From the NCBI RefSeq assembly GCF_036346105.1, contig NZ_CP107811.1:1426001-1490000 (forward strand): DNA of 64,000 nucleotides. The letters are read 5' to 3'. The first letter of the stretch is position 1, and each line of letters opens with the position of its first letter. This document shows, one piece after another, positions 8,481-18,520 of this stretch. The stretch is from Streptomyces sp. NBC_00539 (GTDB lineage: Bacteria > Actinomycetota > Actinomycetes > Streptomycetales > Streptomycetaceae). Under the pieces are notes generated by a model. That model made no database searches, was not told where the DNA came from, and saw only the letters and a list, made by a program, of their open reading frames with translations. The translations under genes were made by a program, and so were the position numbers.

Positions 8481-9467
8481 ATGCAGCGCGTCGCGATCGT
8501 CGTCCAGCCGGGCATCCGGGCCTTCGACCTCGCCGTGATCACCGAGGTCTGGGGCCCCGACCGCAGCCGCTCCGGGGTCCCTTCCTTCGAGCTGCGCCGC
8601 TGCGCCGCGACGCCCGCTCCGGTGGCGCTGCCCGGCGGGCTCACCCTCACGCCCGACCGGGGCCTGGACTGGCTGGCCGAGGCCGACCTGGTCGTCGTAC
8701 CGGCGCTCTCCGAGCCCGACGGGCCGAGCCCCGCTCCCGTGCTGGCCGCCCTGCGCGAGGCGCACGCCCGCGGCGTGCCGGTGGCCGCCCTGTGTGCCGG
8801 GGCCTTCGTCCTGGCCGAGGCGGGGCTGCTGGAGGGCCGCCGGGCGGTGACGCACTGGTGGCTCGCCCCGAGGCTGGCCGCCCGCTATCCAGGGGTCCTG
8901 GTCGAGGAGGCTCCGCTGTACGTCGAGGACTCGGGGGTGTGGACCTCCGCCGGGGTGGCCTCCGGCATCGACCTGTGCCTGCACCTGGTGCGCGAGGCCC
9001 ACGGCGCGGAGGCCGCCGCGGCGATCGCCCGCTCCATGGTGACGGGCCCGTTCCGCACCGGGGACCACGCCCAGTACCTCGACCGGCCCACCCCGGCAGC
9101 CGACCGTACCGCCGAGGCGCTGGCCGTCGTACGGGAGCGGGCACTGCGCCGGCTGCACGAGCCCATGGACGTGGCCACCCTGGCCCGCTGGGCCGGGATG
9201 TCGCCGCGCTCCTTCGCCCGGCACTTCGCCGCCGCCACGGGCACCACCCCGCACAAGTGGCTGCTGGGCCACCGCCTCGACGCCGCCCGCCGGCTGCTGG
9301 AGCGCACCGACCACCCGGTCCCGGAAGTGGCCCGCCGCACCGGGTTCGCCAGCGAGGTCACCTTCCGCCAGCACTTCACCGCACACGTCGGCCAGAGCCC
9401 GCGCGCGTACCGCGCGACGGCCGCCGCCATCCCAAATCACCGCGACAGTGTTAGAAATGGCTCATGA
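8481..9467 (+). CDS. GlxA-family transcriptional regulator (DJ-1/PfpI plus AraC HTH)
   Basis: Protein of 328 residues. Residues 1 to about 185 form a DJ-1/PfpI-like amidotransferase fold with the family motif ALCAGAFVLAEAGLLEGR and THWWLAP; residues about 215-315 contain two AraC-type helix-turn-helix units (DVATLARWAGMSPRSFARHF and VPEVARRTGFASEVTFRQHF). It should bind DNA and respond to a small ligand or redox signal through the N-terminal domain. Start ATG at 8481 follows a GGGA stretch. Its last codons overlap the start of the large SpoIIE-type phosphatase by 4 bases, so the two are probably co-translated, an unusual partner for this regulator class. Confidence 0.9.
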   Translation: MQRVAIVVQPGIRAFDLAVITEVWGPDRSRSGVPSFELRRCAATPAPVALPGGLTLTPDRGLDWLAEADLVVVPALSEPDGPSPAPVLAALREAHARGVPVAALCAGAFVLAEAGLLEGRRAVTHWWLAPRLAARYPGVLVEEAPLYVEDSGVWTSAGVASGIDLCLHLVREAHGAEAAAAIARSMVTGPFRTGDHAQYLDRPTPAADRTAEALAVVRERALRRLHEPMDVATLARWAGMSPRSFARHFAAATGTTPHKWLLGHRLDAARRLLERTDHPVPEVARRTGFASEVTFRQHFTAHVGQSPRAYRATAAAIPNHRDSVRNGS

Positions 9468-12253
9468 CCGGACGTTCGGGTCGACCCAGGGGATCGCCGC
9501 CGGCGGGCCGGCCCCCGGGCCTGCTCGCGCGCTTCGCCCACTTCCCCGGGAGCGTCGCCGGCCAGGTGTTCCTCCTGCAGGCGGTGATCGTGCTGGTGCT
9601 GATCACCGCCGCCACGCTGGCGCTGGTGTTCCAGGCCCGGTACGACAGCGCCCGTGACGCCCGCAACCGTTCGCTCGCGGCGGCCGAAGCGTTCGCCCAT
9701 GCGCCCGGTCTGCCCGCCACCCTGCGTTCGCCGAACCCCTCGGCCGCGCTCCAGCCCCTGGCCGACGCCGCCCGCCGGGCCTCCGGCGTCGACTTCATCG
9801 CCGTGATGAACAAGGACGGCATCCGCTACACCGACGCCCGGCCCGATCTCATCGGGAAGCGGGCCACCGGTGACCTCTCGCGCGCCGTCAACGGAGCGCC
9901 CTTCACCGAGACGTTCAAGGGCGCCCCCAGCGACGCGGTGCGCGCGGTGGTCCCCGTGCAGGACTCCTCGGGGGCCGTCGTCGGGCTCGTCGCCACCGGC
10001 ATCGAGATCGCGAACGTCGGCGGGGCGGTCGGCAACCAGCTGCCCCTGCTGCTCGGCTCGGCGGCCGGCGCCCTGCTGCTGGGCACCGGTGGCGCCGCCC
10101 TCGTCAGCCGCAGGCTGCGGCGCCAGACCCGGGGGCTGGGCGAAGCCGAGATGACCCGGATGAACGAGCACCACGAGGCGGTCCTGCACGCCGTGCGCGA
10201 GGGGGTGCTCATCATCGGCGCCGACCACCGGCTGGTGCTCGCCAACGACGAGGCACGACGGCTGCTGGACCTGCCGCCGGACGCCGAACAACGGCACGTC
10301 ACCGACCTCGGCCTGGACCCCCGTACCGCGGACCTGCTCGTCTCCGGGCGGATCGTGACGGACGAGGTCCACCTGTCCGGGGACCGCCTCCTGGCCGTCA
10401 ACGTCCGGCCCACCAAGCCGTACCGGGGCATGCCCTCGGGCAGCGTCATGACGCTGCGCGACTCGACCGAGCTCGCCGCGCTCTCCGGGCGCGCCGAGGT
10501 GGCCCGTGGGCGGCTCCAGCTGCTGTACGACGCGGGGGTGCGGATCGGCACCACCCTGGACGTGGTGCGCACCGCCGAGGAACTGTCGGAGGTGGCCGTT
10601 CCGCGCTTCGCGGACTTCGTCACCGTCGAGCTGCTGGAGCCCGTGCTCCGGGGCGAGGAGCCCTCGGCGCTGTCCGGGACGTACACCGAGATGCGCCGGG
10701 CGGCGATGAGCGGGGTGCGCAGCGACCAGCCGTTGCAGCCGGTCGGGGAGATCATCCGGTTCGTGGTGCCGACCGCGCCGATGGCCGCGGCGCTGGCCGC
10801 AGGGCGGGCGGTGCTGGCCGCGGATCTGAACACCGCTTTCGGCTGGCGGGCCCAGGACGCCGAGGGCACCCGGGTGGCCCTGGAGTACGGGCTGCACTCA
10901 CTGATCTCGGTACCGCTGCAGGCGCGGGGCGTGGTGCTGGGCATGGCCAACTTCTGGCGGGCCGACACCCCGGACGCCTTCGACGAGGAGGACCTGTCCT
11001 TCGCCGAGGAGCTGGGGGCGCGCGCCGCCGTCTCGATCGACAACGCCCGCCGCTTCACCCGGGAGCACGCCACGGCGGTCACGCTCCAGCGCAGCCTGCT
11101 GCCCCGGGTACTGCCCGAGCTGAGCGCCGTGGACGTCGCGTTCCGGTACCTGCCCGCGCAGGCGGGCGTGGGCGGTGACTGGTTCGACGTGATCCCGCTG
11201 CCGGGCGCCCGGGTGGCCCTGGTCGTCGGCGACGTGGTCGGGCACGGCGTGCACGCCGCGGCGACGATGGGCCGGCTGCGCACCGCCGTGCACAACTTCT
11301 CGACGCTGGACCTGCCGCCGGACGAGCTGCTGGGGCACCTGGACGAGCTGATCGACCGGATCGACCGCGACGAGACCGGGTCCGCCGAGGAGAGCGGGGA
11401 CGGCGACGACCCGGCCGGCGTAACGGGCGCGACCTGCCTGTACGCCGTCTACGACCCGGTGTCCGGCCGCTGTTCGGTGGCGAGCGCGGGACACCCGGGC
11501 CCGGCGCTGGTCCACTCGGACGGCCGGGTGGAGTTCCCCGAGCTGCCGACCGGGCTTCCGCTGGGGGTGGGCGGGATGCCGTTCGAGACGGCCGAGCTGC
11601 GGCTGCCGGAGGGCAGCCGGCTCGCGCTGTTCACCGACGGGCTGCTGGAGGACCGCGACCGCGACATCGACACCGGACTGGAACTGCTCAAGGGGGCGCT
11701 GTCGACGACCGGACGCAGCCCCGAGCAGGCCTGTGTGGACGTGCTGTCGGCGCTGCTGTTCCCCTCGCCCAGCGACGACATCGCGCTGCTGATCGCCGAC
11801 ACCCGGCGGCTGGACGCGGACCACATCGCCGAGTGGGAGGTCCCGGACGACCCCGCGGCCGTCTCGCGGGTGCGCAACGCCGGTTCGGCCCAGCTCCAGG
11901 CGTGGGGTCTGGAGGAGATCGCCTTCACCGCGGAACTGATCCTCAGCGAACTGGTCACCAACGCCATCCGTTACGGGTCCGAGCCCATCGGGGTGCGGCT
12001 GCTGCGCGACCGCACCCTGATCTGCGAGGTGTCCGACGGGAGCAGCACCTCCCCGCACCTGAGGTACGCGGCCTCCACCGACGAGGGCGGTCGCGGCCTG
12101 TTCCTCGTCGCGCAGTACGCGGAGCGCTGGGGCACCCGTTACACCGAGCGGGGGAAGGTCATCTGGGCGGAGCTGCCGCTGACGGACGGCGGCGCGGAGC
12201 CGCTGGCGGCGCTGACCTTGGACCTGGACGAGCTGGAGGGGCTGGCCTGGTGA
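9464..12253 (+). CDS. membrane SpoIIE-type PP2C phosphatase with sensor, PAS, GAF and HATPase domains
   Basis: Protein of 929 residues. Order: basic N-tail; membrane helix at about 34-56; an extracytoplasmic sensor of the CitA/DcuS (single Cache) type at 60-185 (MNKDGIRYTDARPDLIGK, VVGLVATGIEI); second helix at 191-214; PAS at about 235-340; GAF at about 350-540; SpoIIE/PP2C at about 560-765 with metal-binding Asp in GGDWFDVIPL, VGDVVGHGVHAA and LFTDGLLEDRDRD; and an RsbW-like histidine kinase-type ATPase at about 795-920 (ELVTNAIRYGSEP, DEGGRGLFLVAQYAERWG). Such proteins control anti-sigma/anti-anti-sigma partner switching. Carrying both phosphatase and ATPase, it could act as opposing kinase and phosphatase on one antagonist. 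It overlaps the GlxA gene by ATGA. Confidence 0.93.
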   Translation: MTGRSGRPRGSPPAGRPPGLLARFAHFPGSVAGQVFLLQAVIVLVLITAATLALVFQARYDSARDARNRSLAAAEAFAHAPGLPATLRSPNPSAALQPLADAARRASGVDFIAVMNKDGIRYTDARPDLIGKRATGDLSRAVNGAPFTETFKGAPSDAVRAVVPVQDSSGAVVGLVATGIEIANVGGAVGNQLPLLLGSAAGALLLGTGGAALVSRRLRRQTRGLGEAEMTRMNEHHEAVLHAVREGVLIIGADHRLVLANDEARRLLDLPPDAEQRHVTDLGLDPRTADLLVSGRIVTDEVHLSGDRLLAVNVRPTKPYRGMPSGSVMTLRDSTELAALSGRAEVARGRLQLLYDAGVRIGTTLDVVRTAEELSEVAVPRFADFVTVELLEPVLRGEEPSALSGTYTEMRRAAMSGVRSDQPLQPVGEIIRFVVPTAPMAAALAAGRAVLAADLNTAFGWRAQDAEGTRVALEYGLHSLISVPLQARGVVLGMANFWRADTPDAFDEEDLSFAEELGARAAVSIDNARRFTREHATAVTLQRSLLPRVLPELSAVDVAFRYLPAQAGVGGDWFDVIPLPGARVALVVGDVVGHGVHAAATMGRLRTAVHNFSTLDLPPDELLGHLDELIDRIDRDETGSAEESGDGDDPAGVTGATCLYAVYDPVSGRCSVASAGHPGPALVHSDGRVEFPELPTGLPLGVGGMPFETAELRLPEGSRLALFTDGLLEDRDRDIDTGLELLKGALSTTGRSPEQACVDVLSALLFPSPSDDIALLIADTRRLDADHIAEWEVPDDPAAVSRVRNAGSAQLQAWGLEEIAFTAELILSELVTNAIRYGSEPIGVRLLRDRTLICEVSDGSSTSPHLRYAASTDEGGRGLFLVAQYAERWGTRYTERGKVIWAELPLTDGGAEPLAALTLDLDELEGLAW

Positions 12254-12278
12254 CGCGGGGTCTGCCCGGGGCGCGGGC

Positions 12279-14336
12279 CTACGGGACGACCGTGCGGGCC
12301 AGGAGCACCGCCACGTCGTCCTGCGGGGCCGCCGGCAGGAGCCGCTCCAGGATCTCGTCGCACAGCTGCTCCAGTGGCCGGGCCGGCTGCCCGAGGGCCC
12401 GCGCCAGCTGCTCCAGTCCCTGGTCGAGGTCCCGGTAGCGGGCTTCGATCAGCCCGTCCGTGTAGAGCGCCAGGAGGCTGCCGGGCGGCAGCGGCACCTC
12501 CTCGGTACGGAAGTCCGTTCCGCCCGCTCCGAGCGGTGTCCCGGGCGGGCCGTCCAGGAAGGTCACCTTCCCGGTGGCGCCGACCACCGCGGGTGGCGGG
12601 TGCCCGGCCCGGGCGATCAGGCAGCCGCCGGCCGCCGGGTCGTGGACGGCGTAGACGCAGGTCGCCATCTCGTTCTCGCCGAGGTCCGCCACCGTGGCGT
12701 CGAGGGAGCGCAGCATCCGCTCGGGTGGCACGTCGTGGCGGGCGAGGGTCCGTACGGCCGTACGGAGCTGGCCCATGACGGCCGCCGCGTGGATGCCGTG
12801 GCCCATCACGTCCCCGATGACCAGTCCGGTCCGGCCCCGGGGCAGCTGGATGACGTCGAACCAGTCGCCGCCGACGTCGTGGGCGCTGGCGGGCAGGTAT
12901 CGTCCCGTCAGTTCGAGGCCGTCGACGCGCGGCACGGCGCTGTTGGTGAGGCTGCGCTGGAGGGTGAGCGCCGCGCGCCGCTGTCCGGTGTACATACGGG
13001 CGTTGTCGATGTTGAGCGCCGCGCGGGCCACCAGCTCGTCGATCAGGACGCTGTCCTGCGCGTCGAAGGGCTCCCGCTCGCTCAGCCGGGTCACGGTGAC
13101 CGCGCCGAGGACCGTGCCGCGCGCCACCAGCGGGACGAGCCGTGCCGAGCCGAGGCCGGCCAGGTACCTGCGCAGCGGGTCGGCGCGCGGGTCGGTGATG
13201 AGCGCGGGGACGTCGGCGGCGTACAGGTTCATGGGCCGGCCTTCGGCGATGACCCGTTCGTAGACGGTCCCGGCGGGGATCTTGAAGGTCTGGCCGGGGG
13301 CGAGGGCGGCCGTCGGCGCGGACGGGTCGGGGAAGCTGACGGCGAGCCTGCGCAGGACGCCCCGGTTGGAGAACGCGGCGTCATCGGGGCCGAGGACGGC
13401 TTCCAGCAGCTGTACGTCGGCGGAGTCGGCGAGCTGCGGGACCAGCAGGTCCACGATCTCGCGGGCGGTCTGGTCGAGGTCCAGCGTCGTCCCGATGCGG
13501 GTACCGGCCTCGGCGAGCAGGGCGAAGCGGGTACGGGCCCGCTCGGCCTCCAGCTGCGCCCGCTGGCCTTCGGTGATGTCGATGAGGGAGGCGATCACCC
13601 CGAGCGGGCGGCCGCCCGGGTCGAGCAGGGGGGCGTAGGAGCAGGACCAGGTCCGCTCGTGGCCGGGGTCGGCGGGGGTGTGCCCGGTGCGGCGGACGTC
13701 GACGACGGGGGCCCCCTGCTCCAGCACCTGCCGCATCATCGCCTCCAGTGCGACGGCGTTGACGCCCGGGACCACCTCGGTGAGCCGTTTGCCCAGGTGG
13801 GCGGCGGCGGAGACGCCGTTCATCCGGGCCAGCGCGTCGTTGACGCGCAGGAAACGCAAGTCGGTGCCGAGGGTGGCGAGGCCGATCGGCGACTGGGTGA
13901 ACAGGCTCTGGAGCGCGGCGAGGGAGTCCCGCATGTGCAGGACCTCGGAGGTCTCCACGGCGACGAGCATGGCGCCCGGACGGCCCTGCGGGTCCATGGC
14001 GGGCACGATCCACATCTCCATCGTCACGCGGTGCCCGTCACGGTGGCGTACGGGCAGGGTCCCGACGACGGTCTCGCCCGCCTGGACGCGGCGGGTCAGG
14101 TCTTCGGCGAGCTCGCGGTTGGCGTCGGGGACGAGGACGGTGGTCCCCGGGCGGCCGATGATCTCCTCGGGGCGGTGGCCGAGCAGGTCCTGGGCGGCCA
14201 GCGACCACTGCACGACGCGGCCGTCGGCGTCCTCGCGCCACAGGGCGATCGGCAGCAGCTCCCGCAGTACGCCCGCGTACCCGACGACGCCCGGCGGCTG
14301 ATCGGGTACCTCGCTCGTCAACCGGTATGTGTCCAA
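12279..14336 (-). CDS. cytosolic SpoIIE-type PP2C phosphatase with PAS-PAS-GAF
   Basis: Protein of 685 residues without membrane helices. Two PAS domains (about 25-140 and 145-265, with ALWREDADGRVVQWS and THDSPIG-like cores), a GAF domain (about 275-450) and a C-terminal SpoIIE/PP2C domain (about 470-685) retaining the metal-binding Asp residues in VGGDWFDVIQL, IGDVMGHGIHAA and LYTDGLIEARYRD. It should dephosphorylate an anti-anti-sigma factor after sensing a small molecule or redox state. It lacks the C-terminal ATPase of its neighbour, with which it is convergent (25-bp gap). The two share domain wording (TLQRSL, VVGDV/VIGDV) and may be diverged duplicates. Confidence 0.93.
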   Translation of the reverse strand: MDTYRLTSEVPDQPPGVVGYAGVLRELLPIALWREDADGRVVQWSLAAQDLLGHRPEEIIGRPGTTVLVPDANRELAEDLTRRVQAGETVVGTLPVRHRDGHRVTMEMWIVPAMDPQGRPGAMLVAVETSEVLHMRDSLAALQSLFTQSPIGLATLGTDLRFLRVNDALARMNGVSAAAHLGKRLTEVVPGVNAVALEAMMRQVLEQGAPVVDVRRTGHTPADPGHERTWSCSYAPLLDPGGRPLGVIASLIDITEGQRAQLEAERARTRFALLAEAGTRIGTTLDLDQTAREIVDLLVPQLADSADVQLLEAVLGPDDAAFSNRGVLRRLAVSFPDPSAPTAALAPGQTFKIPAGTVYERVIAEGRPMNLYAADVPALITDPRADPLRRYLAGLGSARLVPLVARGTVLGAVTVTRLSEREPFDAQDSVLIDELVARAALNIDNARMYTGQRRAALTLQRSLTNSAVPRVDGLELTGRYLPASAHDVGGDWFDVIQLPRGRTGLVIGDVMGHGIHAAAVMGQLRTAVRTLARHDVPPERMLRSLDATVADLGENEMATCVYAVHDPAAGGCLIARAGHPPPAVVGATGKVTFLDGPPGTPLGAGGTDFRTEEVPLPPGSLLALYTDGLIEARYRDLDQGLEQLARALGQPARPLEQLCDEILERLLPAAPQDDVAVLLARTVVP

Positions 14337-14420
14337 CGCACGACCTCGCCCCGGGTGGGCCTGTTTCCTACCGGTTCACCCTAGCCGAGTGCCCGGCGCG
14401 GGGCGCTGCGGTCGCCGTGC

Positions 14421-14448
14421 GGCGGGCGGCCCGGCCGGACCGCCCGCC
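14421..14448 (-). terminator. terminator after the DUF3574 gene
   Basis: A 9-bp GC stem (GGCGGGCGG at 14421-14429 and CCGCCCGCC at 14440-14448) with a 10-nt loop lies 8 bases beyond the DUF3574 stop, in the short region upstream of the phosphatase start at 14336. Confidence 0.6.
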
Positions 14449-14455
14449 GGGCGGG

Positions 14456-14938
14456 TCAGAAGTCGACCTGGACGCGCGCGTCGGCGCGGCCCACGGACTC
14501 CAGCTCCCACATGGCGCAGTACAGGTTGCGGATGTACTCGATGTCGGCGTCCCGGGCGCGGGCCTCGGTCACGGGGTAGAGCACGGTCAGTTCGTACGAC
14601 TTCTCGCGGTTGATGTCACCCTCCTTGTCCCTCCATTGGCCGCGCCCTTCCTGGAGCGTCAGTCCGGCGGGGAAGCGGGGGGTGACGACGTCGGCGATGA
14701 ACTTGTTGAACTGCTCGTCGGTGATGGGCGGCTTGCCGTCGTGCCGCCCGGTGCCGAAGTAGAGGCTGGTGGAGACGTACGGTCTGCCCCGTTCCGCGGC
14801 CCCGTCCTGGTTCACCGCCGAGGCGGCGGCCGGGGGCTGGAAGGTGGCGTTCGAGGCCGGGCTCGCGGAGGCGAAGAACAGCACGGCCGCCGTGAGTACG
14901 GCGGCGGCCGCGGGCATCGATATCCGTATGGGGCGCAT
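14456..14938 (-). CDS. exported DUF3574-type protein
   Basis: Protein of 160 residues with a Sec-type signal peptide (basic MRPIR, hydrophobic AAAAVLTAAVLFFASASPA, residues 8-27). The mature part has the pattern I associate with DUF3574: STSLYFGTGRHDGKPPITDEQFNKF followed by VTPRFPAGLTLQEGRGQW and a late LYCAMWELESVGRADARVQVDF, which suggests a small alpha/beta exported domain of unknown function. ATG at 14938 is preceded by GAGAGGGA. It is the last gene of a minus-strand run that starts at the HEXXH gene, 74 bp after the helical-repeat gene, so it may or may not be co-transcribed with that cassette. Confidence 0.75.
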   Translation of the reverse strand: MRPIRISMPAAAAVLTAAVLFFASASPASNATFQPPAAASAVNQDGAAERGRPYVSTSLYFGTGRHDGKPPITDEQFNKFIADVVTPRFPAGLTLQEGRGQWRDKEGDINREKSYELTVLYPVTEARARDADIEYIRNLYCAMWELESVGRADARVQVDF

Positions 14939-15012
14939 GGGGTCCCTCTCTGTGGCGGTGGTCTCGGGGGGTGGGGTCTGGGGGCCGGAGCCTGCGGGAC
15001 TGCCGGAGGCGG

Positions 15013-15954
15013 TCAGGCGGTGCGGGCGGGGTCCGGGCCCGCCAGGTGCTCCTGCAGGAAGACCGCCGCGTCCCGCAGCCCGGCGGGGACGCCGGGGGCC
15101 CGGCGCAGGAGCCGGGCCGTCCTGCGCAGCGATCGGGCCGTCCGGGCGGAGCCGATGCCCGCGGCGCGCGGGGCGAGGTCCGTGATCAGGTCCTCCGCCT
15201 CGCGCCAGGCCCCGGCGCGGGCCAGGGCCGCGAGGAGTTCCGCCGCGAACAGGTGACGGTAGGAGGGGCCTGGGGCGGTGGCCGCCCGGTGCAGGAGGGG
15301 CAGGGCCCGGTCCCACCGGCGCAGCCGGGCCATGACCCACCCCTCGTGGCCGGTCAGCTCTTCCTGGTCGATCCACCACGCCCAGTGCGGGTCACGGCGC
15401 GAGACGCCGTCCAGGAAGCGGCTCTGGGCCCGGGCGATCAGCTCCAGGGGCTCGCGGTGGGCGCCGAGCAGGGCGGTCGCGTGTGCCCGGCGGATCAGGA
15501 CGAGGGCGCTGACGCGGGGCGGCAACGGGCGCGGCCCGGCGACGCGCGAGGCGGTCTCCAGGGCGGCGCGCGGGTGCCCGGTGTGGGTCTGGAGCATGCT
15601 GTGGTTCAGCCGTACCAGCCGGGCCGTCCAGCGGTCGCCGCAGAGTTCGGCGAGGGCCAGCGCGCGGGCGTCGGCCCGGTACGCGTGCCGGTGGAGGCCC
15701 GCGTCGAAGAGGATCCATCCGATCACCTCGCACAGCTCGGCCAGCACCGCGATCCGGTCGTGGGAGTGGCCGCGCAGGCGTTCGGGGTCGGCGGAGAGTT
15801 CCGGGTGGCGCCGTACGGCCTCGCGGGCGGCGGGGACCGCGGCGCGCGCACCGCGCGTGGCGTCGAGGTGCACCAGCCGCTCGGTGGTGCGTGCCGCGTC
15901 CGCGGTGCGTGCCGCGTCCGTACGGAGTGCCCCCTGCGCGGCGGGAGCGGTCAC
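15013..15954 (-). CDS. helical-repeat (TPR-like) protein of the HEXXH/7-TM cassette
   Basis: Protein of 313 residues, almost entirely alpha-helical by composition, with Ala/Leu/Arg-rich helices spaced about 35-40 residues (for example WTARLVRLNHSMLQTHTGH, SALVLIRRAHATALLGA, HEGWVMARLRRWDRALPLL, FAAELLAALARAGAWREAE), which reads as degenerate tetratricopeptide units. No enzyme motif. The GTG start at 15954 overlaps the stop of the 7-TM gene by 4 bases, so its synthesis is coupled. The N-terminus contains an 18-bp in-frame duplication (ADAART repeated). Such proteins often act as cytosolic adaptors or ligand-binding regulators. I know of similar unnamed genes beside 7-TM proteins in actinomycetes, but no established function. 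Confidence 0.72.
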   Translation of the reverse strand: MTAPAAQGALRTDAARTADAARTTERLVHLDATRGARAAVPAAREAVRRHPELSADPERLRGHSHDRIAVLAELCEVIGWILFDAGLHRHAYRADARALALAELCGDRWTARLVRLNHSMLQTHTGHPRAALETASRVAGPRPLPPRVSALVLIRRAHATALLGAHREPLELIARAQSRFLDGVSRRDPHWAWWIDQEELTGHEGWVMARLRRWDRALPLLHRAATAPGPSYRHLFAAELLAALARAGAWREAEDLITDLAPRAAGIGSARTARSLRRTARLLRRAPGVPAGLRDAAVFLQEHLAGPDPARTA

Positions 15955-17165
15955 CGGGTCACCGTCCACGCCTCGGTCCTGCGGCCGCCGCGGCCGAGCG
16001 CGGTGAAGGAGGAGGCGACCTCGGTCAGCCACTCCACCTCGTCGCGGAAGTCCTCGTAGGGCGGCCGGGCGGGGATCTCCGGGGACTCGGCCTCCTCGGC
16101 CCGCTCCTCGGGGTCCCGGCTCAGTGCGGCGCGCACCTGGAGGGCTTCGCCGAGGGGCGAGGTCGGATCCTCCGGCAGACCGAGCGAGCGGGCGACGCGG
16201 GAGAAGTCCGCGAGCGAGAGCGAGGTGCGCAGGATCAGCTGCCCGTCGCGGATCTCGATCACCCGCCGGTAAAGGCTGTAGTGCAGGTCCCTGGGCGGCA
16301 GCAGGTCACGCATCCAGGAGCGGGGCGGGTCCAGCGCGATGTCGGGGGACGCCTGGTGCAGGGCCCACCACAGGGGTCGCAGCCGGAGGTAGGCACGGTA
16401 GCTGCGGCCCCAGGCCCGGGCGCGGGTGAGGTGGATGCCCCAGGCCGGGATGGTCCATCCGGTGACCTGGAGCAGTGCGCCGATGCTGCCGCAGGCCCAC
16501 TGGACCGGGTCGAGGCCCGCGCCGTCGAAGTGCAGCCGGGTGCCGGCGATCTGGATGCCGCGGGTGACGCAGTAGACCAGGATGAGCGTGGCGCCGACGG
16601 TGACGGTCCGCATGCCGGCCGCGAGCCACTGGCGGTTGGCCACCTTGGTGAAGCGCATCGACAGCCGGACCGTCTCGGCCTGTCCCACGGCGCATATCAG
16701 CAGGTAGAAGGACATGTAGAGGGCGTATCCGCCGTGGTGGATGCTCAGCAGGATCGTCGATGTCGCCGTGTCGGAGTGCGCCACCGGGCCCACGACGAAG
16801 GAGGAGGTCACGAGCACGCAGAGCGCGGCGCCGAAGAACAGCAGGCGCCGGCGGGCCATCCGCCGGGCCTGGGCGGGGGGCGAGGACCAGTGGACGAGGA
16901 CCACTTGCTGCGCCGCCGTGAGCACGACCACCGCCACCTGGGTGATCAGCGAGGTGATGTTGGGGACGCCGAAGAACCCCGAGATGTGCAGCCTCAGTTG
17001 GTCCAGGTCGACGAGGAAGCTGATCCCGGAGCACAGGAAGTAGACGCACAGCGCCCACAGCGCCACGTCGTGCTTGCGGCGCACCAGGTCCGGGAGCCGG
17101 TAGGCGAAGGCGGCGAGACCGACGAAGGTACAGATCCAGGCGAGGGCCGTGTAGACCGCCGTCAC
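15951..17165 (-). CDS. 7-TM membrane protein, MAB_1171c-like
   Basis: Protein of 404 residues. Seven hydrophobic helices can be placed at about 4-22, 33-53, 69-92, 106-128, 138-160, 185-205 and 222-245, followed by a cytoplasmic domain of about 150 residues containing RDLHYSLYRRVIEIRDGQLILR. The topology resembles actinobacterial proteins named MAB_1171c-type putative transporters, a label not backed by transport data that I know of. Start GTG 17165 overlaps the upstream HEXXH gene (GTGA), and its own end overlaps the next gene (GTGA), so three proteins are made as a unit. A receptor-like role, with the soluble tail signalling, is as plausible as transport. Confidence 0.72.
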   Translation of the reverse strand: MTAVYTALAWICTFVGLAAFAYRLPDLVRRKHDVALWALCVYFLCSGISFLVDLDQLRLHISGFFGVPNITSLITQVAVVVLTAAQQVVLVHWSSPPAQARRMARRRLLFFGAALCVLVTSSFVVGPVAHSDTATSTILLSIHHGGYALYMSFYLLICAVGQAETVRLSMRFTKVANRQWLAAGMRTVTVGATLILVYCVTRGIQIAGTRLHFDGAGLDPVQWACGSIGALLQVTGWTIPAWGIHLTRARAWGRSYRAYLRLRPLWWALHQASPDIALDPPRSWMRDLLPPRDLHYSLYRRVIEIRDGQLILRTSLSLADFSRVARSLGLPEDPTSPLGEALQVRAALSRDPEERAEEAESPEIPARPPYEDFRDEVEWLTEVASSFTALGRGGRRTEAWTVTR

Positions 17166-17737
17166 TGCGGTTCCGTCCTGCCGAGACCCTGCTCGATGCG
17201 GGCGACGACGTCGGCGGCCTCCGCGGGTACGGCCCAGGCGGGTTCGACCCAGCGTTTGGTGACCCTGGCCAGGATGAGCGAGGCCATGGTCTCGGCCTCC
17301 TGCTCCTCGTCGTCGCTGTAGCGGGAGCGCATGAGCAGTCCCCGTACGCCGGCGGGGTCGACGTTCGACAGGAGTGGCCCGGAAGGAGTGTGGTCCAGCG
17401 GTACCGAGCCGCGGTGCTCGAAGGCGATGTGGGCGAGTTCGTGGGTGATGATGTGTTCTTTGTGTGCGGGCGACGCGGACTTCTCGAAGGCGACGACATC
17501 GAAGTCGTCCAATTTCAGCCACAGGCCCAGCAAATGGCGTTCCGGGAAGGAGGTCGGAATCAGATGAATGGTTCGGCGGCGGCTCTCGCTGAGATAGCGG
17601 TGGAGTTCGTCGATTCCGCAGCCGTGCTCCATACCCCACTCCACCAGCATCGCCTCACAGGTACGGCGGACCCTTTTGAGCCGGCGCCTGCGCCGTCTGT
17701 CCTCCGATGCCGGCGACGCTGAGCCCGGTATCTTCAT
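17162..17737 (-). CDS. ImmA/IrrE-type metallopeptidase-like protein
   Basis: Protein of 191 residues with an intact HEXXH zinc motif, HELAH at residues 99-103, in the context ITHELAHIAFEHRG typical of ImmA/IrrE (DUF955) proteins. The N-terminus is very basic (RRRRRRLKRVRR at 14-25). ImmA and IrrE cleave XRE-type repressors; in this gene family from actinomycetes the substrate is unknown and no XRE gene is adjacent. ATG 17737 is preceded by GGAGG at good distance. It is the first gene of the coupled cassette with the 7-TM and helical-repeat proteins. A downstream Asp/Glu-rich segment (SRYSDDEEQEAETMA) may provide the third zinc ligand. Confidence 0.8.
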   Translation of the reverse strand: MKIPGSASPASEDRRRRRRLKRVRRTCEAMLVEWGMEHGCGIDELHRYLSESRRRTIHLIPTSFPERHLLGLWLKLDDFDVVAFEKSASPAHKEHIITHELAHIAFEHRGSVPLDHTPSGPLLSNVDPAGVRGLLMRSRYSDDEEQEAETMASLILARVTKRWVEPAWAVPAEAADVVARIEQGLGRTEPQ

Positions 17738-17857
17738 CCCTCAGTCCTCCGGCGGAACTCGTCGGCTGCCCTCCCCTGCCCGTGCCCGATGATCTCCGGG
17801 GCAGACGACGCGGTCATGATGTCACACGCCAACTCCCTTCTGTCCGTTGTGGGTTCT

Positions 17858-17879
17858 ATCCGGCCACGCATCGCCGGAT
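17858..17879 (-). terminator. candidate terminator downstream of mepB
   Basis: 7-bp stem ATCCGGC/GCCGGAT (17858-17864, 17873-17879) with an 8-nt loop about 70 bases past the MepB stop, in the 210-bp gap that also holds the promoter of the HEXXH cassette. No gene is visible in 17738-17947. Confidence 0.4.
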
Positions 17880-17947
17880 TCCGTCGAAAGCGGGCGGGGA
17901 CGAATAGTGCGTCCGGGATATGCCGTGCGGTAATTCGACGCGATTCC

Positions 17948-18520
17948 CTAGGGGCGGTGGAGCTCTCGGGCGCGGACGGGATCGACGGTGCCGCCCTCGG
18001 GGACGGGCAGGAAGTGGTCCGACTGCCACGCCTGCGTGCGCTCCGCCTGGCGGCTGGTGGTGGTCACCCAGGGCGGGTACACGCGGAATGCCCGCTTCCC
18101 GCCCGACCCGTCCACGGAAACGACCCCGTGCCGTCGGAGCGCGTCGAGGGGAAGGACGAACTGGCCGAAGCGGTCTGCGTCCCGGGTGCTGACGACGAAC
18201 AGGTCGACGGGGTCCGTGGTGTCGAACGGCCGAATGGGGCCGCCCGGGGACCTCTGCCACACGGTGACGAACTGGCCGGCCTTCGTGGGGGTCGTCCTGG
18301 CCGCGCGGAACCGGACGCGCCGGCCGTCCAGGGTGAAATGGTGGGCGGCGTACGCGGCGCTCTCGGGTTCGGGGACCGGCTGGGAGCAGGTGAAGCCGCA
18401 GGGATCGTAGACGAGCGCTTTCGCCGCGAGGAGGTCCCCGTGGGTGACGGTGGCGTCCCAGCGCGCCGTGGGGCCGGTCGGCGGACGGGGATCTGACGGG
18501 TACGCGCGGTCGGTCGGCAT
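17948..18520 (-). CDS. MepB family protein
   Basis: Protein of 190 residues matching the MepB family pattern: AAHHFTLDGRRVRFRAARTTPTKAGQFVTVWQR, then PFDTTDPVDLFVV, FGQFVLPLDAL and KRAFRVYPPWV with a final TQAWQSDHF. In Staphylococcus mepB lies beside the MepA multidrug pump, but no biochemical function is established. Here there is no pump next to it. ATG at 18520. The macro-domain gene lies 42 bp upstream on the same strand, so co-transcription with macro domain and FAD oxidoreductase is likely. It starts with a proline-rich 20-residue stretch that is probably disordered. Confidence 0.8.
   Translation of the reverse strand: MPTDRAYPSDPRPPTGPTARWDATVTHGDLLAAKALVYDPCGFTCSQPVPEPESAAYAAHHFTLDGRRVRFRAARTTPTKAGQFVTVWQRSPGGPIRPFDTTDPVDLFVVSTRDADRFGQFVLPLDALRRHGVVSVDGSGGKRAFRVYPPWVTTTSRQAERTQAWQSDHFLPVPEGGTVDPVRARELHRP

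Follow-up and report, generated by a model that had tools for sequence, protein, structure and literature searches.

We analyzed a minus-strand operon in a 64,000-nt stretch of contig NZ_CP107811.1 from Streptomyces sp. NBC_00539, the host (the whole stretch is called the window, and all positions are window coordinates). Its first genes encode an ImmA/IrrE-like metalloprotease of the COG2856 type and a seven-transmembrane (7-TM) protein of the MAB_1171c family. These two genes, often accompanied by a gene for an EspR-like XRE regulator, are the conserved core of the system, rather than a three-gene unit that includes the tetratricopeptide repeat (TPR) gene downstream. This arrangement is best read as proteolysis of an XRE repressor triggered from the membrane, because the protein is ImmA/IrrE-like, its gene is tied to a 7-TM gene and relatives often carry an XRE gene upstream. 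We give a probability of about 0.5 to a model in which the ImmA-type protease is gated by the membrane protein and in turn inactivates an XRE repressor, with the linked XRE gene lost in the window's clade and the target reached in trans or via the TPR protein.

Protease and 7-TM genes form a conserved pair

The protease gene (17162..17737, minus strand) starts with ATG and encodes 191 amino acids. It is followed by the 7-TM gene (15951..17165, minus strand, 404 amino acids) and the TPR gene (15013..15954, minus strand, 313 amino acids), which both start with GTG, and GTGA overlaps are found at both junctions. An earlier sequence-only reading of this DNA had proposed a translationally coupled cassette of these three genes, and its coordinates, gene order and GTGA coupling were exact. 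It had rightly named the three genes but overlooked a fourth gene of the operon, which encodes a DUF3574 protein (14456..14938, minus strand, 160 amino acids) and starts 74 bases after the end of the TPR gene.

An alignment search with the 7-TM protein, of which the best 80 of 88 confirmed relatives were kept, yielded 79 named actinobacterial loci. In 78 of these, the protease gene lies directly upstream of the 7-TM gene; the sole exception, L161, has only a partial 7-TM match. We compiled a second set of 55 neighbourhoods with a 7-TM gene, i.e., 54 fetched ones (three from the host genome) and the window, which shares genomes with the named loci. Protease profiles matched in 54 of them, and for the single miss, L075, tblastn showed a protease piece at the contig end. 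In L026 and L031, the protease gene is on the opposite strand, about 4.7 kb from the 7-TM gene. A phylum sample of 198 genomes gave 23 MAB_1171c-family matches, with a protease gene within 1.5 kb of 18. The other five were two second genes of tandem pairs, two partial matches and one unexplained case (L219). The family is patchy, i.e., at E 1e-15 it occurred in eight of the 198 genomes, seven of them from the host's genus, including the host. In a genus sample (393 genomes, including the host), 7-TM relatives with at least 80% identity were present in 11 genomes, again including the host. All five protease genes found in the host genome adjoin a MAB_1171c gene (150 of 189 first-look candidates were scored), and all six host MAB_1171c genes lie within these five clusters.

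The distances of protease and 7-TM proteins are correlated (Mantel r 0.87, 0 of 2000 permutations, 78 rows), which fits descent of the pair as a unit. We calculated ratios of nonsynonymous to synonymous substitution rates (dN/dS, Nei-Gojobori) for the window genes against six relatives (L105, L106, L107, L109, L111, L121). They were 0.08–0.25 for the protease, 0.14–0.22 for the 7-TM, 0.27–0.43 for the TPR and 0.32–0.38 for the DUF3574 gene. From the adjacency in 78/79 loci and the dN/dS values, we conclude that the gene linkage is beyond chance. Of the three genes expected to co-occur, the protease and 7-TM genes did so, but the TPR gene was present in just 41 of the 79 named loci and has relatives outside the cassette as well; a conserved three-gene order was hence not upheld. 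Tandem or repeated 7-TM genes within one cluster were seen in L036 (7873–10462), L022 and L101, the latter two with a second protease gene. In relatives, the pairs precede aldo/keto reductase, amidase, cytochrome P450 or alpha/beta hydrolase genes (four downstream types scanned).

The protease contains a HELAH motif at residues 99–103. H99, E100, H103, E145 and E149 were invariant in all 57 rows of one alignment and all 79 of another. The best structural matches of the predicted fold were IrrE, PprI and CapP; the predicted IrrE-type fold, the HEXXH motif and a downstream invariant acidic residue are all present. Motif, invariant glutamates and predicted fold thus bear out the initial assignment as an ImmA/IrrE-type HEXXH protein. 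Against the Pfam Peptidase_M78 profile (gathering cut-off 22 bits), one of three scanned proteases passed, i.e., L071 with 23.8 bits, compared with 20.4 for L022 and 12.1 for the window. Neither the protease nor the 7-TM protein had a match below E 0.1 among PDB sequence profiles.

The 7-TM protein is a clear member of the MAB_1171c family (NF042915, 302.9 bits, curated cut-off 100, profile positions 1–361 of 362). Residues 251–388 form a DUF6545 domain (PF20182, 101.1 bits, cut-off 24.4), predicted to be cytosolic. By hydropathy only, the protein has about seven hydrophobic segments, with K/R-rich loops at 22–34, 94–108 and 162–182. The N-terminus is accordingly predicted outside and residues 246–404 (159 amino acids) inside, in agreement with the seven segments and the 150-residue cytosolic tail described before.

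The linked XRE gene was most likely lost in the window's clade

The window has no repressor gene next to the cassette, as had been noted before, but this absence seems to be a derived state. Immediately upstream of the protease gene, 27 of the 79 named loci carry a gene for an EspR-like XRE protein, i.e., 23 of 38 loci without a TPR gene versus 4 of 41 with one. It is convergent downstream in three further loci and located elsewhere in five more. XRE is absent from 37 of the 41 TPR loci, two of these being at contig ends. The XRE-bearing TPR loci are L134 from Streptantibioticus ferralitis, which has all five genes in the order XRE-protease-7TM-TPR-DUF3574, and L142–L144 from Actinomadura, where no DUF3574 match was seen. 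The arrangement protease-7TM-TPR-DUF3574 without XRE is kept in 35 named loci.

A profile built from 26 XRE genes of relatives, three of them convergent, matched EspR over the full profile (E 7e-34) and gave weak matches to 7t5u, which we take to be CapH, to an immunity repressor and to DdrO. In a class sample of 148 genomes, it detected 22 XRE genes in 21 genomes. Protease and 7-TM genes were found on the same strand within 1.5 kb of 13 of these; for two, both partners were convergent with weak scores, and seven had no partner or pieces only within short flanks. In L260 and L262, from another family of the class, the EspR-like XRE gene and a 7-TM/protease pair with weak scores are convergently oriented, and L261 and L263 of the same genus have XRE without the pair. 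Three genomes (L189, L190, L191) carry an XRE-protease pair with the 7-TM gene upstream; a large gene nearby reads, from its translation, like a fusion of a ketosynthase with an aminotransferase-type enzyme.

We placed the loci on a 7-TM tree, a quick build with several long branches, on which branch support is given by the Shimodaira-Hasegawa-like approximate likelihood ratio test (SH-aLRT). The window lies in an XRE-less clade of 25 rows with 100% SH-aLRT support. XRE linkage and TPR presence need four changes each, and the XRE-bearing L134 has two XRE-less sisters. Among genus-sample relatives at 46–54% identity, four have TPR without XRE, and G088 (L097) has XRE without TPR. The tree and the XRE counts indicate that the linked XRE gene was most likely ancestral and then lost more than once. 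XRE distances correlated with protease distances at 0.71 versus 0.52 with those of the 7-TM protein (27 loci), which might be the pattern of a protease-substrate pair or of shared descent.

A dedicated unlinked XRE for the window cassette was sought with the L134 XRE protein in 14 genomes, i.e., 13 with the cassette and its own, and was rejected. Matches in G062, G386 and G197 (54–55%) adjoin their own protease and 7-TM gene, the host-genome match belongs to another protease/7-TM copy, and G192 and G328 gave no match. G102 gave a match as well. XRE matches in G238, G415 and G035 (45–49%) and in G226 (38%) had no protease or 7-TM gene in the stretches L192, L193, L194 and L197. Orphan XRE genes hence exist in some cassette genomes, but we found no general partner.

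TPR and DUF3574 genes

The TPR protein scored 108.1 bits with the NsdA-family profile NF053720 (cut-off 75), covering positions 133–425 of 432; in a second comparison, the match began at position 122. An NsdA-family paralogue from the host genome covers positions 2–432. The DNA-binding helix-turn-helix (HTH) presumably sits in the N-terminal region of the family, as we read it by eye in L239. Pfam scans found no HTH in that host paralogue and none in L040. Judged from profile coverage, the window protein is an NsdA-derived TPR protein, not an NsdA repressor. The earlier description as TPR-like was hence correct, yet the protein is not an anonymous helical repeat but the C-terminal TPR part of the NsdA family.

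The DUF3574 protein matched PF12098 on 14456–14917 with 105.8 bits (Pfam gathering cut-off 25). It has, by eye, a signal-peptide-like N-terminus and is probably secreted. A DUF3574 match follows the TPR gene in 36 of the 41 TPR-bearing named loci. In the three Actinomadura loci, start and stop of the TPR and 7-TM genes overlap. Two genes of one cluster (c5) come after DUF3574 in L084, L085, L088, L089 and L090.

TPR genes also stand alone. In the stretches L226–L235, where they likewise lack the NsdA N-terminal region, we found no protease, 7-TM or XRE match (L234 ends at a contig end). Among the neighbours scanned are genes for an amidase, a PepSY protein and an SbnA-like enzyme. The last of these precedes TPR in L232 and L233, and a similar-sized gene occupies this place in L229 and L234. 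On a TPR tree of 62 rows, stand-alone copies nest among cassette copies, with seven label changes, of which well-supported branches force three. This nesting indicates that the TPR gene moved out or was exchanged more than once.

Proposed mechanism and alternatives

We propose that the 7-TM protein would sense a signal at the membrane and that its DUF6545 domain would release or activate the protease, which would then cleave or sequester an XRE repressor. The operon itself would thereby be derepressed, as would, in some relatives, an adjacent gene for an aldo/keto reductase, amidase, P450 or hydrolase. The window's clade would have lost its linked XRE, with the N-terminally short NsdA-type TPR and DUF3574 proteins following in the operon, and protease and 7-TM protein would still work on a target in trans. 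This target may be the XRE of another copy in the genome. It could also be an NsdA-type regulator, reached via the TPR protein, which has the same TPR part and could pair with it. The gene architecture is observed, and from it we infer sensing, proteolysis and target; that the membrane protein switches the protease is suggested by its topology and by the linkage of the two genes. We draw the parallel with IrrE/DdrO and ImmA/ImmR from the fold and motif of the protease and from the XRE partner seen in relatives.

Two results speak against a tight three-gene unit. Of the 21 TPR relatives with at least 64% identity in the genus sample, 10 come from genomes that lack a 7-TM match at E 1e-45, which disfavours an obligatory role of the TPR protein. 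Moreover, no orphan XRE dedicated to the window cassette was found in the host genome.

A possible, though less probable, explanation treats the TPR and DUF3574 genes as cargo. The protease/7-TM pair would then act on unlinked XRE proteins and the TPR protein independently, e.g., as a non-DNA-binding competitor of NsdA-type repressors. The stand-alone TPR relatives beside unrelated genes, their nesting among cassette copies and the faster evolution of both genes compared with the core all argue for cargo. This is opposed by the GTGA overlap that, in the window, couples TPR to the 7-TM gene, the start/stop overlap in Actinomadura and the position of TPR after the 7-TM gene in 41/79 named loci.

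An unlikely alternative is that the 7-TM protein serves in transport or in the envelope and is trimmed or controlled by the protease, in which case the pair would regulate membrane traffic instead of transcription. NCBI names NF042915 a putative transporter. According to the accessible part of one study, a Mycobacterium abscessus MAB_1171c knockout had about half the biofilm mass of the wild type, and the gene was classed among transport genes (PMC8707978). However, the label stems from annotation, and a receptor could equally well have seven segments and a conserved soluble domain. Also, XRE lies upstream in 27/79 named loci, and the pair stands beside 13 of the 22 class-sample XRE genes.

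A toxin-antitoxin-like or phage-defence unit comparable to COG2856/XRE pairs or CapP/CapH is very improbable. COG2856/XRE pairs are listed among toxin-antitoxin candidates in the part of PMC2701414 that was accessible, and CapP is among the best structural matches of the protease. The cassette's three proteins, however, had no PADLOC match at E up to 1, and the four scanned downstream gene types of relatives are enzymes; lacking matches, both readings were discarded. Least probable of all is a decaying remnant left functionless after repressor loss, since despite the lack of linked XRE throughout the window's 25-row clade, the active-site residues are invariant in 79/79 rows, dN/dS is well under 1 for all four genes, and the 35 XRE-less loci keep the complete arrangement.

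Upstream element and neighbouring genes

A conserved element (17802..17837, minus strand) with the core GTGTGnCATCATGnCCGCG lies 5′ of the protease gene and is a possible promoter or operator. The block around it occurs in the 21 rows used for matrix building, i.e., the window and 20 of 25 named loci tried (L104–L128), and a matrix scan found it in L126. The core has a single exact match in the host genome. We postulate no regulon for the element, as six host-genome matches with up to two mismatches versus four for the reversed control gave no clear excess. The element is probably the operon's own control region. A scan of 14200–18100 found no sigma-70 promoter, and the two weak terminator-like sites seen lie away from the end of the operon. 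A MepB-like gene (17948–18520, minus strand, PF08877, 152 bits), located 5′ of the operon on the same strand, is likely unrelated to it. Beyond the operon, 9464–14336 holds two large genes that we take to resemble PP2C/SpoIIE-type phosphatases with sensor domains.

Relation to known systems and significance

Individually, NsdA, the MAB_1171c family and COG2856/XRE pairs have all been described before. We found no description of their joint module, or of a protease/7-TM/XRE module, in the literature searched, with most subscription papers outside its reach. Nor did this literature yield a paper on coupling of the MAB_1171c family to an ImmA-type protease. Like ImmA/ImmR of ICEBs1 and other COG2856/XRE pairs, the system has a small ImmA/IrrE-type HEXXH protein and, in many relatives, an XRE partner; it differs in the 7-TM gene that accompanies the protease gene and in the absence of XRE from the window. 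In IrrE (PprI)/DdrO of Deinococcus, a GAF-like domain is present and switching by zinc release has been proposed, according to the accessible part of PMC7907104, whereas the candidate switch here is a membrane protein. EspR, a nucleoid-associated XRE regulator, is matched full-length by the XRE genes of relatives, but none is linked in the window. With the NsdA/NsdB TPR regulators of Streptomyces, the window protein shares a homologous TPR part above the NF053720 cut-off, but it lacks about the first 130 profile positions.

The same part of PMC7907104 describes the activation of COG2856 proteins as unexplained, which makes the protease/7-TM linkage worth testing. The 7-TM partner encoded with the protease is a concrete candidate activator. 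A more far-reaching version appears doubtful to us, namely that EspR-like XRE, protease and 7-TM protein form a patchy actinobacterial receptor-protease-repressor pathway, which would be the missing upstream COG2856 switch, and that in the window's clade an NsdA-type TPR adaptor, itself devoid of a DNA-binding part, has replaced the DNA-binding partner and redirects the protease to NsdA-family regulators of development and antibiotic production. The five host protease/7-TM clusters and the enzyme genes downstream in relatives suggest that actinomycete metabolism is under a layer of control that has been little studied. NsdA is a negative regulator of antibiotic production, as stated in the accessible parts of PMC9739823 and PMC12243394. 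The system would therefore be of practical interest should the TPR protein indeed act on NsdA.
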